A DNA stretch of 36,074 bases from a bacterium (GTDB lineage: Bacteria > JACRDZ01 > JAQUKH01), in contig JBFMCF010000066.1 of the NCBI GenBank assembly GCA_040754625.1, positions 1-36,074 on the forward strand, written 5' to 3'. Positions 1 to 34,224 of the stretch are shown here, piece after piece (position 1 is the first letter of the stretch; each line of letters opens with the position of its first letter). The position numbers and the translations under genes were made by a program. The notes beneath the pieces were generated by a model. That model did no database searches. It was not told the DNA's origin and saw only the letters and a list, made by a program, of their open reading frames with translations.

Positions 1-99
1 ATCAGAAGCTATATTTCGACGTGCAGAAAAAATGGAGTCGGTTCTGTACAGGCTTTGAACTTATTATTCAGGGGAGAGTTACCGGAGTTTATGAAATAA
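1..99 (+). pseudogene. C-terminal end of an IS66-family transposase (cut by the window edge)
   Basis: The plus-strand frame starting at base 1 encodes 32 residues before a TAA stop. It contains SYISTCRKNG, then QALNLLFRGELP. This resembles the C-terminal tail of IS66-family transposases, where a [G/S]Y[IL]ST.RK.G block is followed by an alpha-helical 'AL...F.G.P' segment. It is the only plus-strand coding sequence in the window and points toward the broken response-regulator gene. The rest of the transposase lies outside, so it is not possible to say whether the element is intact. The family call rests on a short tail and should be taken as probable. The match is remembered family pattern, not a search. 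Confidence 0.6.
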
Positions 100-124
100 T
101 TGTGTTTTTATGCTGAATAGTTAC
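1..124 (+). mobile_element. Right end of an IS66-type insertion sequence
   Basis: The transposase tail stops at 99. About 25 bases later comes GCTGAATAGTTAC (112-124), which read from the outside is GTAACTATTCAGC. IS66-family ends characteristically begin 5'-GTAA and make 8-bp target duplications. On the other side of base 124, response-regulator coding sequence begins immediately, and its stop codon (TAA, 121-123 complement) is supplied by the IS end. The predicted 8-bp duplication is AAATCAGG (125-132); its partner copy would lie outside the window. Confidence 0.6.
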
Positions 125-282
125 AAATCAGGCTTATTTAGGTTTGCAGAATCAAGGGCCTCACGGCCATCAGACGCGAAATAGGTCTGGTAGTTTTTTT
201 CACCTAAAATCTGTGAAACTAAAATGCGTATATCTTTTTCGTCATCGACAATAAGAATTTTTTTCTTTTTTAAATCGTGCAT
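121..282 (-). pseudogene. Response-regulator receiver domain, truncated after 52 codons by an IS element
   Basis: Reading down from ATG at 280-282, the product starts MHDLKKKKILIVDDEKDIR and continues to NKPDL, then stops at TAA (121-123). This is the first half of a CheY-like receiver domain. The ILIVDDEKD segment carries the acidic pair (Asp13, Asp14) that binds magnesium, and the 'DGREAL' turn follows. In intact receivers 'PDL' is followed at once by the 'DxxMP' strand with the phosphorylated aspartate, and here that is missing. The sequence after codon 52 is the terminal repeat of an IS66-like element, so the gene is very probably interrupted and non-functional as it stands. A consensus promoter lies just upstream (332-359). 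Its output domain, if any, is beyond the window or lost. Confidence 0.75.
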
Positions 283-361: not shown

Positions 362-2443
362 TTATTTTTCTTTAATTTTTTTCATCAACTCGCTGAGGAT
401 ATAATCTGCTTTTTCGAAACTAATGCCTATTTTAACAGAACCAACCGGCCGCCCCTGGTAAATGATTGGGACGGATATTTCTTCTTTTTGATACATCAAA
501 GCGATTTCTTTATTCTTTTGGGACTCCTTTACTTTTGTATGGATAACCTTTTTCCCTTCATTGTCTAAAATAAAAATATAATCAATCCAATCTTCTTCCC
601 AGACATTCAGCAAGGTATTTTTTAAACCATCAATGCTCTTATTCAAGATAAAATTATTACTTTCTGATGCTAAAATTCTTGCCGCGATTAACCCGCGCTT
701 CTTGATTTCTTCCTGCAATATTTCTTTAACCGCCAGATAATCCAATTTTATTTCACTTCCTCTTTCTGCTTCAATTTGCAAACCCGCGTCTTTTATCAAT
801 CCCGTCTTAATTTCCCTGTACTGGAAAATATTCTCATCTTGTTTTGGCGTGTATGAGTAATCAATTGTTTCGTTTGAGTTTATAGTATAGTTTTCCAGGA
901 TTTTCCAGACAATCTTTTCTTTATCACCCGCATACCACTCAACCAGAACCGGCAGAAAATATTCATTATCAATCTTCATTTTGACCTGTTTCAGCGATAT
1001 ACCGAAAAATTCCAATGGTGTTTTCATATCCATTTCCAGCACGTAAAACATTTTCTCGTTTTCCTGCAGCATATCAATTTTATCATTATAATAATTTTCA
1101 ATGTCCATGGATTTCAGCGGCGCAAGTATTTTATTTTCTTTTTCTAAATTCAATTTAAAATATTCATAATATTCATCTCTTGAAAATTTTATTACTTTCT
1201 TTTCCATGGGGTAATAAACAAATGCTTCACTTTCGTTCAACACACGTGTTTCAGCCATTAATTCGGGGCTTGTTATCTCCCAGTAGTGTTTTCTAAATGA
1301 ATTTTCATTTAATTTCCAGAAATCAAATATGTCCTGTGAAAGGCCTGCATTCTCACCTTTTAATTTTATCGTGAGGGTTTCAGTCAATTCTTTCGAGATC
1401 CTGCCTTCTATTTTCACCGACGCGATTAATTTATCGATATTTTTTGTTCTCAATGCGCCTTTAAGGATTTTAAGTGAAAACGCTGATAAAGGTTTGATAT
1501 CCTCCTGTATTGGCGGAGTAACTGTTGGCACCATGACCGGCTTTATCCCGTCTTCCTTTGTTTTTTCAGCCACAGGTTTAGGAATTTCAACTGAAACAGA
1601 CGCCGGAATATCCTTATTTTCCGGGACATATTCTCCGCGCAGGTAAGAAATCCCAATAGACCAATCCAATTCAGGATAAAAATAAAAACCGATTATGTAT
1701 TCTTTTTCCTGCACAAAATATTTCCCCCACCCGCTTTCTCCTAACTGCATTCTCTGGACAATCGCTTTATATTCAGGATTTACATCGGTATCAAGCTTTT
1801 CTTTTAACATTTTAATTTTCTCGGGGTGAATTAATATTTTAGCCTCAGGATTAATAACGAAACCATAGCTGGAATCAGAAATTTTAAGTTTTTTTATTAA
1901 ATTGGTTATTTCGCTGATGTCCCAGTCAAAACTTAGAATCGCCTTTTCCATGCCGGTCAATCCATAGATTGGTGTGGACATCCTAAGAACAACGATACCT
2001 TCGGAATTGAACTCTAAAGATGAAACTGAAATCTGGTCTTTATTTAATTTGATTGATTCTTTAAAAAATTCATCAGAGCTTACATCGGCATAACCGGATT
2101 TTATTTCTATCCCGTTTGAAACCTTGAGCTCTTCTACACCCCTTGTATTTATTATTCTTATTAAAGGATAATCTTTAATTTCTTTTGAGAAAGCTATTAT
2201 GCTTTTTGCCCATTCCTGCCGGCCCGCCTGGGCGAACGAAGTCAATCCTTTTGATAATATAAGCAAATCCTTTCCACGCTCTGATATAATCTGCCTTATT
2301 TTTTCAGCGGTGTCTTGAGATTTCCCGGACAATACCTCACCGATTTCTTCTGAAGGCATATTCGCCGTTATTAAAACCTCATCCGCAATGTTTACGGCTG
2401 ACAACAAACATAAAAAGAAAAATATAACCAATAATTTTCTCAT
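362..2443 (-). CDS. Secreted protein with Cache-like, LolA-like and second sensor-like domains
   Basis: This 693-residue protein has an N-terminal signal peptide (about 1-20) and no later membrane segment, so it is probably periplasmic. Residues about 30-272 look like a double Cache sensor domain: a long N-terminal helix, the 'LIRIINTRGVEELKV' strand pattern, 'YGFVINPEAKILIHP' and a terminal 'ELDWSIGISYL'. A Pro/Glu/Lys-rich linker (about 273-320) follows. Residues about 325-545 resemble the outer-membrane lipoprotein-sorting (LolA-like) fold, with a 'YYPMEKKVIKF' segment and paired beta strands. The last 130 residues contain 'DYIFILDNEGKKVIHTK' and 'GRPVGSVKIGISFE', which look like another Cache/PAS-like sensor fold. 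No kinase, cyclase or chemotaxis output domain is present. ATG is preceded by AAGGAG. The gene ends next to the response-regulator promoter. Domain calls are from fold-pattern recognition and the exact family is not known. Confidence 0.6.
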   Translation of the reverse strand: MRKLLVIFFFLCLLSAVNIADEVLITANMPSEEIGEVLSGKSQDTAEKIRQIISERGKDLLILSKGLTSFAQAGRQEWAKSIIAFSKEIKDYPLIRIINTRGVEELKVSNGIEIKSGYADVSSDEFFKESIKLNKDQISVSSLEFNSEGIVVLRMSTPIYGLTGMEKAILSFDWDISEITNLIKKLKISDSSYGFVINPEAKILIHPEKIKMLKEKLDTDVNPEYKAIVQRMQLGESGWGKYFVQEKEYIIGFYFYPELDWSIGISYLRGEYVPENKDIPASVSVEIPKPVAEKTKEDGIKPVMVPTVTPPIQEDIKPLSAFSLKILKGALRTKNIDKLIASVKIEGRISKELTETLTIKLKGENAGLSQDIFDFWKLNENSFRKHYWEITSPELMAETRVLNESEAFVYYPMEKKVIKFSRDEYYEYFKLNLEKENKILAPLKSMDIENYYNDKIDMLQENEKMFYVLEMDMKTPLEFFGISLKQVKMKIDNEYFLPVLVEWYAGDKEKIVWKILENYTINSNETIDYSYTPKQDENIFQYREIKTGLIKDAGLQIEAERGSEIKLDYLAVKEILQEEIKKRGLIAARILASESNNFILNKSIDGLKNTLLNVWEEDWIDYIFILDNEGKKVIHTKVKESQKNKEIALMYQKEEISVPIIYQGRPVGSVKIGISFEKADYILSELMKKIKEK

Positions 2444-2525
2444 TGTAAACTCCTTAACAAATTATTTTTTTAAGTTTTAAAAGCCTGATTTCTCATTAAG
2501 ATGATACTACATTATTAATAATAAT

Positions 2526-2975
2526 CTATAAATTTATCAGCATCGCTATTTCATCACAGTCAGGAAATTGAACACAATTAACACATTCGCTCCATATTTT
2601 ATGAGGCAAACTGTTTTTTTCTACTGTTTTAAATCCATTTTTCCCGAAAAAATCGGTTACATAAGTCAAAGTGAAGACTTGTTTAATGCCAAGCTCCCTG
2701 GCCTCTTTTAAACAGGCCTTCAGCAATTTTGTGCCTATGCCCTTTTGTCTTTCAGACTCCAATACGGCAAGTGATTTAATCTCAGCAAGGTTTTCCCAGC
2801 TTATATGAAGGGCACAAATTCCTATAATTTGGTTGTTTTTTTCATACACAAAAAAATCCCTGATATTTTCATACAGCTGGTTATAAGACCTCGGAAGGAG
2901 TTTCCCGCTTTCCGCGTTTAACTGAATAATCCTATATATGTCTTTTATTTCTTTAACAAATGCTTTTCTTATCAT
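2526..2975 (-). CDS. argA: GNAT acetyltransferase, short ArgA type (N-acetylglutamate synthase-like)
   Basis: A single-domain GNAT protein of 149 residues. The acetyl-CoA loop is visible as 'ERQKGIGTKLL' (about 87-97), preceded by the 'LAEIKSLAVLES' strand. The pattern LLPRSYNQLYE...VYEKNNQIIG...ALHISWENLAEIKSLAV...FGKNGF...LPHKIW...C..C..FP.CDE is typical of the short N-acetylglutamate synthases that lack the amino-acid-kinase domain of E. coli ArgA. These acetylate glutamate in the first step of arginine synthesis. The three C-terminal cysteines are characteristic of this subgroup. No other arginine gene is nearby, so substrate assignment rests on family resemblance. The gene starts 19 bp after tlyA ends and is likely co-transcribed with it. 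Confidence 0.7.
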   Translation of the reverse strand: MIRKAFVKEIKDIYRIIQLNAESGKLLPRSYNQLYENIRDFFVYEKNNQIIGICALHISWENLAEIKSLAVLESERQKGIGTKLLKACLKEARELGIKQVFTLTYVTDFFGKNGFKTVEKNSLPHKIWSECVNCVQFPDCDEIAMLINL

Positions 2976-12085: not shown

Positions 12086-12709
12086 TTATTTATACTCTAA
12101 TATACCGCCAAACCAATTGCCGGCCGGCAGCACCTCTAAAAAGGCTTTATCTGTCGCTTTCTGATTCCTGAAACCTATCAATAGACTGTCAAATGTTTTT
12201 TTAGCTTCGAATTCAATAGTACAAATACACCCGTCACCCGTCACCCCGCCCGATGCCTGGGTTAAACGGCTTACTGCCACTATTTGATTGCTGAAAATAA
12301 AACTGGTCTTCTTCCCATCTTTATTAAGAAAATCTCCTTCTTCCGCTTTTTTCAATATTAATTTATCAGTATCATAATCAAAATCAAAGGTTATTCCAAA
12401 AACATTAATTCCCCCGCAAATATTTATATAAAAAATATTCGGTTTAGATTCTCTATATTCTATGCCAATATTCCCTGATTCCAGATTTTTCTTATGAGGT
12501 AAAAAAATAAACACGGGAGCAGTTTGATTTGTCGTCATGTAATTATTCGAACTTGAAGTATTATATCCGGTATCCCCGGGAGGCATAGGCGGCAATTCAG
12601 CCGTATCGTTTTGATTGGTTTCAGACACAGTTAGGGAATTCGAATCTTTTCTCCGGCAATTTGGGAAAATCAATAATATCAATAATAAACCGATAAAGAC
12701 TTTTTCCAT
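12086..12709 (-). CDS. Putative lipoprotein with a cohesin-like domain
   Basis: The 207-residue product starts with a hydrophobic signal sequence ending in 'LLIFPNC' (Cys18), which looks like a slightly off-consensus lipobox. A Ser/Thr/Asn/Pro-rich linker (about 20-70) follows. The remainder resembles a cohesin beta-sandwich: 'INVFGITFDFDYDTDKLIL', then 'DFLNKDGKKTSFIF' and the typical 'GGVTGDGCICTIEFEA' near the end. In cellulosomes cohesins bind dockerins, but similar domains occur in many non-cellulolytic bacteria as general adhesion or cell-surface modules. No dockerin is seen in the window. A TTG (12712) directly precedes the ATG used. No convincing Shine-Dalgarno is present. Downstream of the lytic transglycosylase in the same direction. 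Confidence 0.6.
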   Translation of the reverse strand: MEKVFIGLLLILLIFPNCRRKDSNSLTVSETNQNDTAELPPMPPGDTGYNTSSSNNYMTTNQTAPVFIFLPHKKNLESGNIGIEYRESKPNIFYINICGGINVFGITFDFDYDTDKLILKKAEEGDFLNKDGKKTSFIFSNQIVAVSRLTQASGGVTGDGCICTIEFEAKKTFDSLLIGFRNQKATDKAFLEVLPAGNWFGGILEYK

Positions 12710-12754
12710 CAATACATATTATCTTTAAACGACTGCTTATATTGGAATCCCTGG

Positions 12755-20723: not shown

Positions 20724-21377
20724 TCATAGATTTTCTAATTTTTCCAGCCATAGATTAAAATGTTTACACTCTTTCCTGATAGCATTTAATCCAATTCTGT
20801 TTGTTATTAACGGACCATGAAGTGTTTTTTGGTAAGAAGGAAATAGATTAGATAAGCGTTTTGATGGAATAGTATTTGGATTGTCATTGATTTCTTCTGT
20901 AGAATTAAACTTCCTTTTAATTTCAGCAATTTCATTTACTTTTCTCATATTATTAAAAGCTTTCCCTATTTCTTCCGGCGAAACGAAAACTAACGATTCG
21001 AATTCATGCAGTTGTAAGTAAGGAATAAACCTGGGACTATTTATATCTTTCTGAAACAGATTTTCAAGAGAGGCAACTCTGTCAAAACAAATATGCCCTT
21101 GAATTTTATCTTTAAATGGGACCATAGAAGAAAATCCGTAATAATCAATCATTGTTGTTACAATACACACGCTACTATCTAGTAAAAGACGAATTATATC
21201 ATTTTTGACCTTCTCATAAGATGTAATTCCACCTTTAAAAATTAAGCCGGATTTCACTTTTTTTGTTCTTGCAATCACCGGATTGCAATATAACTTATTT
21301 CCAAAATAAGGCAAAAATACTCTTTTTACAAAAGTTTCTTCTGTTTGTCCTTCAACTAAAATATGTATTTTCTTCAT
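20724..21377 (-). CDS. DUF4276 family protein, TOPRIM-like putative nuclease
   Basis: The 217-residue protein begins MKKIHILVEGQTEETFVKRV and has 'GGITSYEKVKNDIIRLL', 'IVTTMIDYYGF' and 'LQLHEFESLVF', the conserved blocks of DUF4276. The Glu in 'VEGQTE' and the Asp in 'MIDYYG' are placed like the metal-binding acids of TOPRIM domains. The ATG at 21377 is two bases after the stop of the AAA ATPase gene and follows GGAAGG, so the longer frame to 21413 is rejected. Tight coupling means the two act together. Family function is not established. By analogy with TOPRIM/ATPase pairs such as PARIS, it may be a nuclease effector held in check by the ATPase. Function is an inference. Confidence 0.8.
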   Translation of the reverse strand: MKKIHILVEGQTEETFVKRVFLPYFGNKLYCNPVIARTKKVKSGLIFKGGITSYEKVKNDIIRLLLDSSVCIVTTMIDYYGFSSMVPFKDKIQGHICFDRVASLENLFQKDINSPRFIPYLQLHEFESLVFVSPEEIGKAFNNMRKVNEIAEIKRKFNSTEEINDNPNTIPSKRLSNLFPSYQKTLHGPLITNRIGLNAIRKECKHFNLWLEKLENL

Positions 21378-21379
21378 AA

Positions 21380-22456
21380 TTATGGCCTTCCGCCAATTAT
21401 ATTCTTCTCCCATAAATCACCCAATCCATATTCCTCAAGCCAATTTTCCATATCTTTTTTATTCAATCGTTTGAAAGTTGATTGGTCAACATTTCTATTA
21501 ACCACAATAATATCTCCAGGGTCAAATTGGTTTACAAATGTAACAGATTGTGTTGCGATAATTATTTGTGTTTTTGTTGCAGCGCTTTTGATTAGGCTCG
21601 ACAACAGTGTGATTGCATAAGGATGAAGCCCTAATTCAGGTTCATCAAGCAAAATAATAGAAGGTAAATCAGGTTGAAGTAAAAGAGTTGCAAGACAAAT
21701 AAACCTGAGAGTACCATCAGAAAATGAATGAGAGTTAAATAAAACATCAGAACCTTTTTCTTTCCATTCTAACTGAATAAGATTATTATTAATTGGATTA
21801 TGTCTGAGGATAAAATCATCAAAAAACGGGGCAACATTTTGAATTGTTTCTACAATATTTCTATAATCCTGTGGATATTTTTGTTTAAGATAAAATAAAT
21901 ATGCTGCGATGTTTGAAGCATCAGGCTGAAGTAAAATATTATCGTTAATATTGCCAAATTGTTTCATTTTCGAAGAATCACTTGTATCATGAAAGTGATA
22001 TAATTTCCAACTCTTAATAGTATCTAAAATAAATTTGGCAGTTTTTTCGGATCTCTGGACATCATACATGTTTGTTTCATCATTACCATTATATTCGAAT
22101 GCAATATATGGTTCTCTATATCCTTCACCATAGAAGCATCCTTTTTCCTTTGAAAATATTAATGTATTTTTTAAAGTTGGAATCAAAGAAAAATGATAAC
22201 TATTTTGTCCAAAAAATAAATCTACAAATAATTCTTTAGTTTGTTTCTGTCCAAAATATAATAATGAATCGACACCGCCTGATTGAGCAACAAATACCTG
22301 AAGATTTTTTTCGATTATTTTATTGATTAATTTAAAAAGAGAAACAAAATTAGACTTTCCGACACCATTTGCTCCTATCAAAATGTTTAAGGATTTTAAT
22401 TCAATATTCATTTCTTTAACAGACTTGAATCCTTTAACTTCTATTTTTTTAAGCAT
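21380..22456 (-). CDS. AAA_21/OLD-like ABC-type ATPase, partner of the DUF4276 protein
   Basis: A 358-residue SMC/ABC-type ATPase without a coiled-coil or C-terminal TOPRIM. Visible: 'MLKKIEVKGFKSVKEMNIEL', Walker A 'ILIGANGVGKSNFVSLF' (about 27-42), signature-like 'SFSDGTLRFICLATLLL', Walker B 'IILLDEPELGLHPYAI' and a 'IIIATQSVTFV' motif in place of the usual ATHS. This class drives many defence and toxin modules in company with a small effector gene. It lies 20 bp after lapB and directly before the DUF4276 gene. By eye the pair is more AT-rich and poorer in CCGG/CGCG words than its neighbours, which would fit acquisition by transfer. The Shine-Dalgarno (TAGGA) is weak. Confidence 0.85.
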   Translation of the reverse strand: MLKKIEVKGFKSVKEMNIELKSLNILIGANGVGKSNFVSLFKLINKIIEKNLQVFVAQSGGVDSLLYFGQKQTKELFVDLFFGQNSYHFSLIPTLKNTLIFSKEKGCFYGEGYREPYIAFEYNGNDETNMYDVQRSEKTAKFILDTIKSWKLYHFHDTSDSSKMKQFGNINDNILLQPDASNIAAYLFYLKQKYPQDYRNIVETIQNVAPFFDDFILRHNPINNNLIQLEWKEKGSDVLFNSHSFSDGTLRFICLATLLLQPDLPSIILLDEPELGLHPYAITLLSSLIKSAATKTQIIIATQSVTFVNQFDPGDIIVVNRNVDQSTFKRLNKKDMENWLEEYGLGDLWEKNIIGGRP

Positions 22457-32991: not shown

Positions 32992-34224
32992 TTATGAATA
33001 AATAACATAACAGTTTCTGCCTTTGTTTTTAGCCTGATATAAAGCCGCATCGGCATTTTTAATCAATTCAACTACACTTGAAGCATTCTTTGGATAATTA
33101 CTGACGCCCAGGCTTACACTAATCTTTCTTTTTTCATTTCCCCTGATAAAAAAATGGCTGTCAATTCTTCTAACAATTCTTTCGGCCATTGGCTTCACTT
33201 TAGATTCCTCTAGTTGAGGCAGGATTACGACAAATTCATCTCCTCCGTAACGGCACAAAATATCTATATTACGGATATTAGCCTTCACAACTTTAACTAA
33301 TTCAGCTAATAAGGCGTCCCCTTCAGGGTGGCCGTGAGAATCATTGTATTTTTTGAAATAATCAACATCAATCAACATAACACTTAAAGGTATACTGTGC
33401 CGTTCCGCCCTGTCAAACTCCTCTTTTATCCTGTTCTGGAAATAACCAAAGTTATAGACATTTGTCATCGCATCAATAATCATTGATTTTTTTGCCTGTT
33501 CATATAACTGGGTATTCTCTAATGCCACTATTGTGTGCGCTGTCAATGTTGAAAGAAGCTGGATATTTTCCTCGGAATAATCTATACCAGCTTCTTCAAT
33601 AAATTTGTTCAAAAAATGAGGTTCCTTTAAATATTCTTTTCCAAGTTCTATTTTGTTTATCGTTCCAACTGCCTGGAATTGACAATATTTATCTCCGAGC
33701 CCCCAGCACTTGGTCTCCTTGACAGACATCCGCTTTTTAAAAATGTTCTCGGCAATACCCGCGATAATACCGGCCTCAAAATAACAAATCGGCCTGCCAA
33801 CCGGCAGTAATCCCGCGCAGGTGGCCGATTCATACAAATTAACCAGCATTTTTTCATCATCAAATTCTACAACTTCCATACGGCCTAATTTAAGTTTTTC
33901 AATAAACTCTATCATCTCCCTGATAGATCTTATAGGGAGCTTTATTCCCAGCCTCTTACCGCCATAATAACTAAAACTCGAAAAACTCTCCCCTAAAATC
34001 CCGCGCAGGCCGACAAGTCTTATAAAACGATATAACAGAACAGACGTATCAGTCCCCAATTCTTCCCGCGTTATCTGCTCCACATTATCCAAATCTAACC
34101 TTAAGACATTGTCCTCTCTTTCCATTTTTTTCACCCCTCCTGTCTTTGCTGTCCCATCACCTATTATTTTAAAAAGCCGGCTAACCGCGCTATTATCATC
34201 CTGCGGTTTATTTTCTTCTTTCAT
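32992..34224 (-). CDS. V4R-domain diguanylate cyclase (GGDEF)
   Basis: A 410-residue soluble protein. Residues about 50-195 contain a V4R (4-vinyl reductase-like) ligand-binding domain, seen in 'ESATCAGLLPVGRPICYFEAGIIAGIAENIF' and 'ETKCWGLGDKYCQFQAVG', whose cysteines may bind a small molecule or metal. A helical linker leads to the GGDEF domain (about 240-410) with 'MTNVYNFGYFQNRI', 'DVDYFKKYNDSHGHPEGD' and intact 'CRYGGDEFVVILPQ' (about 325). The allosteric I-site RNID lies five residues before GGDEF, so product inhibition is expected. It would make c-di-GMP. A strong AGGAGG is found in front of an internal ATG at 34125, a possible alternative start. Its presence inside the dap operon is unusual. 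Confidence 0.88.
   Translation of the reverse strand: MKEENKPQDDNSAVSRLFKIIGDGTAKTGGVKKMEREDNVLRLDLDNVEQITREELGTDTSVLLYRFIRLVGLRGILGESFSSFSYYGGKRLGIKLPIRSIREMIEFIEKLKLGRMEVVEFDDEKMLVNLYESATCAGLLPVGRPICYFEAGIIAGIAENIFKKRMSVKETKCWGLGDKYCQFQAVGTINKIELGKEYLKEPHFLNKFIEEAGIDYSEENIQLLSTLTAHTIVALENTQLYEQAKKSMIIDAMTNVYNFGYFQNRIKEEFDRAERHSIPLSVMLIDVDYFKKYNDSHGHPEGDALLAELVKVVKANIRNIDILCRYGGDEFVVILPQLEESKVKPMAERIVRRIDSHFFIRGNEKRKISVSLGVSNYPKNASSVVELIKNADAALYQAKNKGRNCYVIYS

Follow-up and report, generated by a model that had tools for sequence, protein, structure and literature searches.

The reading frame at positions 362–2443 (minus strand) of the window, which is a whole bacterial contig of 36,074 nucleotides from a 2.75 Mb assembly that is 98% complete, encodes a protein with a confirmed domain order of signal peptide, double Cache, LolA fold and single Cache, and with neither transmembrane (TM) helices nor an output domain. 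This architecture is a new combination of known parts rather than a categorically new one. By analogy, we tentatively propose as the best explanation that the protein may be a periplasmic accessory sensor working like RseB/MucB, with the Cache lobes adding small-molecule input or docking.

Gene and export signal

The gene is open from ATG to stop over 693 residues, is preceded 6 nt upstream of the ATG by the ribosome-binding site AAGGAG (2450–2455, minus strand), which can be read directly, and has orthologues in three other genomes of the phylum. A signal peptide is indicated by hydropathy at about residues 1–20 (2384–2443, minus strand), with a candidate cleavage site between NIA and DE according to a simple -3/-1 rule. 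By the same rule the signal peptides of the orthologous set look cleavable, and the orthologue in genome G002 may be a lipoprotein.

In a Kyte-Doolittle plot (19-residue window), the signal peptide was the only stretch to reach 1.6, and the maximum among windows starting beyond residue 30 was 0.84; hydropathy revealed no TM segment after the signal peptide in this protein or its orthologues, and Pfam found no output domain in it. The first-pass annotation had described a secreted protein without membrane helices or an output domain, and these results bear that out. The two flanking TM helices and the output domain that characterize a Cache membrane receptor are thus both missing, and the sequence predicts that the protein works outside the cell membrane, in the periplasm. 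Membrane helices are predicted for those intact dCache proteins of receptor type that were inspected in the four genomes of the phylum. The phylum also has a second exported Cache protein that lacks such helices, a 423-residue product of genome G003 (locus L009, 116–1387, minus strand); it carries a signal peptide and an N-terminal part that by eye resembles TolB/CsgG, and a Cache domain forms its C-terminus.

The N-terminal double Cache domain

Residues 30–272 (1628–2356, minus strand) form the Cache-type sensor domain that had been suggested for the N-terminus. The Pfam family dCache_1 (PF02743) matches residues 114–265 with an E-value of 1.1e-12 and 48.5 bits against a curated cut-off of 45, and orthologues score 58.5 and 64.1 bits. 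An AF2 model built from the four orthologues gave pLDDT values mostly of 60–87 across residues 30–272, and this model together with Foldseek stretches the double Cache to about residues 30–270. The Foldseek search placed the Tlp3 dCache (E 6.3e-10) at the top, along with dCache structures of the uracil receptor and of further chemoreceptors and kinases, and a four-orthologue profile searched against PDB sequences found PctA (E 8e-7), PctB and Mlp37. The domain therefore shares its fold and Pfam family with receptor sensors such as Tlp3, PctA and vpHK1S but, in contrast to them, lacks two flanking membrane helices and an output domain.

The amino-acid sensor motif of the dCache_1AA subfamily comprises R126, W128 and D173 in PctA (PMC10104139). 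In a hand alignment to PctA, D173 is kept as D/E, W128 is replaced by F/Y, and R126, the carboxylate-binding arginine, is replaced by D or K; this suggests that the domain may lie outside dCache_1AA, and an amino-acid ligand is therefore not predicted. A heme Cache was ruled out because the CXXCH motif is absent. The double Cache is the most conserved part of the protein (85% identity within the genus, pN 0.077 at a saturated pS of 0.81), as would be expected if it recognizes something specific. It is followed by a Pro-rich, disordered linker at residues 273–317 (1493–1627, minus strand), with pLDDT of about 24–39 and 38% identity within the genus.

The middle LolA-like domain

Residues 318–560 (764–1492, minus strand) gave no Pfam match when searched alone, the whole protein gave no match to LolA proper (PF03548), and searching PDB sequences with this domain by itself returned nothing meaningful. 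A four-sequence profile of the domain, searched against 386 genomes, recovered the four orthologues and seven proteins from outside the phylum, six of which pass the PF17131 LolA_like cut-off. The seventh, which scored best (E 2.8e-7), matches DUF2092 alone, and that below threshold, but appears LolA-like by eye; DUF2092 also matches one of the PF17131 proteins among the seven. All seven matches sit in reading frames of 226–281 residues and are free-standing LolA-like proteins.

When aligned by hhalign with eleven PF17131 proteins of the phylum, gathered independently of the middle-domain query, the domain scored 36.2 against at most 27.0 for 150 column-shuffled controls. A wider LolA set, partly chosen with the query, gave a score of 59 at 95% probability (controls at most 22.8), and the match to the true LolA of the phylum failed (score 15, probability 0.3%). 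The full-length AF2 model did not resolve the domain, and its low-confidence order of helices and strands was similar to that of a model from a 19-sequence alignment, in which the domain reached pLDDT 80 and pTM 0.75; the 19-sequence alignment includes LolA-like proteins, so that its model cannot count as separate from the profile evidence, whereas the full-length model was made without them.

All 50 listed PDB neighbours of the domain in Foldseek belong to the LolA superfamily, with E. coli LolA first (E 6e-10) and RseB and MucB (3m4w, 2v42, 6in8) among them. RseB had the highest TMq among the listed matches, up to 0.48, a value that may partly reflect its greater length. The superposition is loose (TM about 0.3–0.5 by query length), as is usual for an open half-barrel of the LolA type. 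Taken together, sequence profiles and structural models place the middle domain in the LolA superfamily (beta-clam fold), and the lipoprotein-sorting-like domain of the first-pass annotation was recovered by profile search, by hhalign against shuffles and by structure search. Distant homology and fold link the domain to PF17131 and other LolA-superfamily carriers, but those were found free-standing, at about 220–285 aa, whereas here the domain lies between two Cache domains.

The C-terminal single Cache domain

For residues 565–693 (365–751, minus strand), the Pfam family sCache_3_2 (PF17203) gave 21.7 bits, below its cut-off of 28.4. By hhalign, the domain matched the sensor of an HD-GYP receptor at 97.5% with a score of 73, where 150 shuffles reached at most 27. 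The matched receptor, a membrane sCache-HAMP-PAS-HD protein of the same genome (genus), itself passes PF17203 with 42.2 bits. Along with the AF2 model, these comparisons are strong evidence that the domain is a single, sCache_3-like Cache homologous to that membrane sensor, so the proposal of a second, C-terminal sensor domain was upheld. A PDB sequence search with this domain gave weak matches only, the top ones being to Cas13a, and these were judged to be due to chance.

Distribution, constraint and genomic context

The protein is present in all four genomes examined from this small phylum, namely this one, its sister species (the MAG G001) and two more distant relatives, one of them a MAG under the name Candidatus Desantisbacteria. 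The gene of G003 is broken by a run of N at a scaffold gap, with the C-terminal part appearing as an ORF of its own, so the full architecture is only likely for this copy. With the middle-domain profile, no Cache-LolA fusion was found in the 382 genomes outside the phylum, a search that could miss more divergent fusions; the three-domain architecture, which had been flagged as worth seeking elsewhere, is seen in the phylum genomes, with the G003 copy likely to keep it. A scan of the genome contigs with the single protein gave no matches, and an alignment-based scan recovered the three relatives already known and nothing else. In a comparison of the two species of the genus, pN is 0.08 in the double Cache, 0.16 in the single Cache and 0.21 in the LolA-like domain, compared with 0.42 in the linker and 0.37 in the fast-evolving signal peptide, and synonymous sites are near saturation in all three domains. 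These values show purifying selection on all three domains, of which the middle one is the least conserved (61% identity), and a lack of conservation in the linker and signal peptide.

The gene lies in the order dxs, tlyA, GNAT acetyltransferase (2526–2975, minus strand), the Cache-LolA gene and a CheY-like receiver, which is common to the sister species. The neighbours in G002 are kelch-repeat and O-antigen-ligase/TPR genes, and those in G003 encode a P-II protein and a proton pyrophosphatase. The conserved neighbours that the earlier annotation had asked to be noted thus do not extend beyond the genus, and no partner gene was conserved at that distance among the neighbours compared. The receiver has its own perfect, sigma-70-like consensus promoter (359–332) and is whole in the sister species; here it is cut after its first 53 codons (125–282, minus strand) by a 124-base repeat (window 1–124) that is shared with the ends of two other contigs, C23 and C123, and a search of the assembly found no near-identical counterpart of the remainder of the receiver. 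The receiver was rejected as an unsupported output partner, being independently promoted, cut in this genome, missing next to the Cache-LolA gene in both G002 and G003, and cytoplasmic. Since the neighbours differ beyond the genus and the receiver has its own promoter and is cut, the neighbourhood gives no reliable partner.

The repeat itself, which starts with GTAA on the minus strand, looks like the end of a mobile element inserted in the receiver gene. Elsewhere in the window (all on the minus strand), a DUF4276 gene overlaps an AAA_21 ATPase gene (20724–22456), the pair strongly matching components B and A of the PADLOC candidate defence system HEC-01; a V4R domain is fused to a GGDEF diguanylate cyclase (32992–34224); and a protein of 208 aa (12086–12712), which matches a cohesin domain weakly and only slightly over the cut-off, has an S49 peptidase region on one side and a LysM/SLT transglycosylase on the other.

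Functional interpretation

The best analogue is RseB/MucB, which offers the nearest functional parallel for a soluble sensor with a LolA fold; this regulator of sigma-E/AlgU binds lipid A in a hydrophobic cavity and controls both the release of a membrane anti-sigma factor and its cleavage (PMC7400510). Like it, the present protein would be a soluble periplasmic sensor with a LolA-fold domain, but it lacks an RseB Pfam match and the RseB C-terminal domain and adds two Cache domains; RseB/MucB, moreover, has a membrane anti-sigma partner in RseA/MucA, whereas any RseA-type partner here is hypothetical. If the analogy holds, the LolA-like half-barrel would hold a lipid, a lipoprotein or another hydrophobic molecule, while the Cache lobes would bind small molecules or pair (dimerize) with the Cache domains of membrane receptors. 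Binding of ligand or lipid could then alter docking on a membrane partner in trans, and that partner would relay the signal into the cell. Cache receptors of the same cell are candidates for this role, for instance the HD-GYP protein, which has the sensor most closely related to the C-terminal domain among those found in this genome. Against this reading, the RseB family gave no Pfam match at E-values up to 10, no partner gene travels with the protein beyond the genus, and the adjacent CheY-like receiver is cytoplasmic, cut and served by its own promoter. The earlier suggestion that a ligand or lipid may be bound and the signal passed to another protein, or that lipid handling may be regulated, fits the folds but is not matched by a partner gene conserved beyond the genus.

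The main and close rival of the RseB-like reading, possible although on the unlikely side, is a LolA-superfamily carrier or chaperone of lipids or lipoproteins in which the Cache lobes regulate loading or dock to envelope machinery and no signalling occurs. The LolA fold of the middle domain favours such a role, as characterized members of the superfamily mostly bind hydrophobic guests (PMC6363788), and the phylum has many PF17131 proteins, several of them (judged by eye) beside ABC permease, MMPL-type or beta-barrel-like genes. However, the genome already has a LolA adjoining FtsK and several PF17131 proteins, the domain that would carry the guest is the least conserved of the three and does not match the phylum's true LolA, and no transporter gene is adjacent. 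A more novel reading, that of a new periplasmic class whose two ligand-binding Cache lobes gate a lipid-binding LolA fold and thereby put lipid sensing, or the delivery of lipid in trans to a membrane receptor, under small-molecule control, seems doubtful.

An improbable alternative is that a sensor module was severed from a former receptor and now acts as a buffer or decoy for ligand, in the manner of SMP_2 (PMC4822843) or the stand-alone sCache_heme proteins (PMC12889525). Both Cache domains indeed have membrane-receptor relatives in the same genome, and the TM-less Cache protein of G003 carries a different N-terminal part; nevertheless, this scenario leaves a LolA-like domain, kept across the phylum between two Caches, unexplained. 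The known stand-alone proteins likewise have a Cache domain without an output domain, but the present protein has no heme motif and joins a double and a single Cache with a LolA fold in one chain. Least probable is a co-receptor anchored by an uncleaved signal sequence or a lipid, for which the G002 orthologue offers a lipobox-like LIAC at residue 20, while the other three have no lipobox and show plausible signal peptidase I sites (by the simple rule only).

Upadhyay et al. described extracellular Cache domains as signalling only through their own C-terminal membrane helix, with one output-less family known (PMC4822843), and a 2026 preprint regards stand-alone heme Cache domains as atypical and puts the share of Cache domains fused to signalling modules at more than 90% (PMC12889525). 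A Cache protein off the membrane is unusual, as the first-pass annotation had remarked, yet stand-alone secreted Cache domains have already been described (PMC12889525), and the oddness thus rests on the combination with LolA; our search for the two together found no paper mentioning both in the literature collection covered. If the proposed reading is true, a conserved exported protein in which two Cache units surround a fold of the lipid-binding type would demonstrate that action in trans, or control over lipid handling, is open to Cache domains, and, being small and expressible, it offers a target for testing this.
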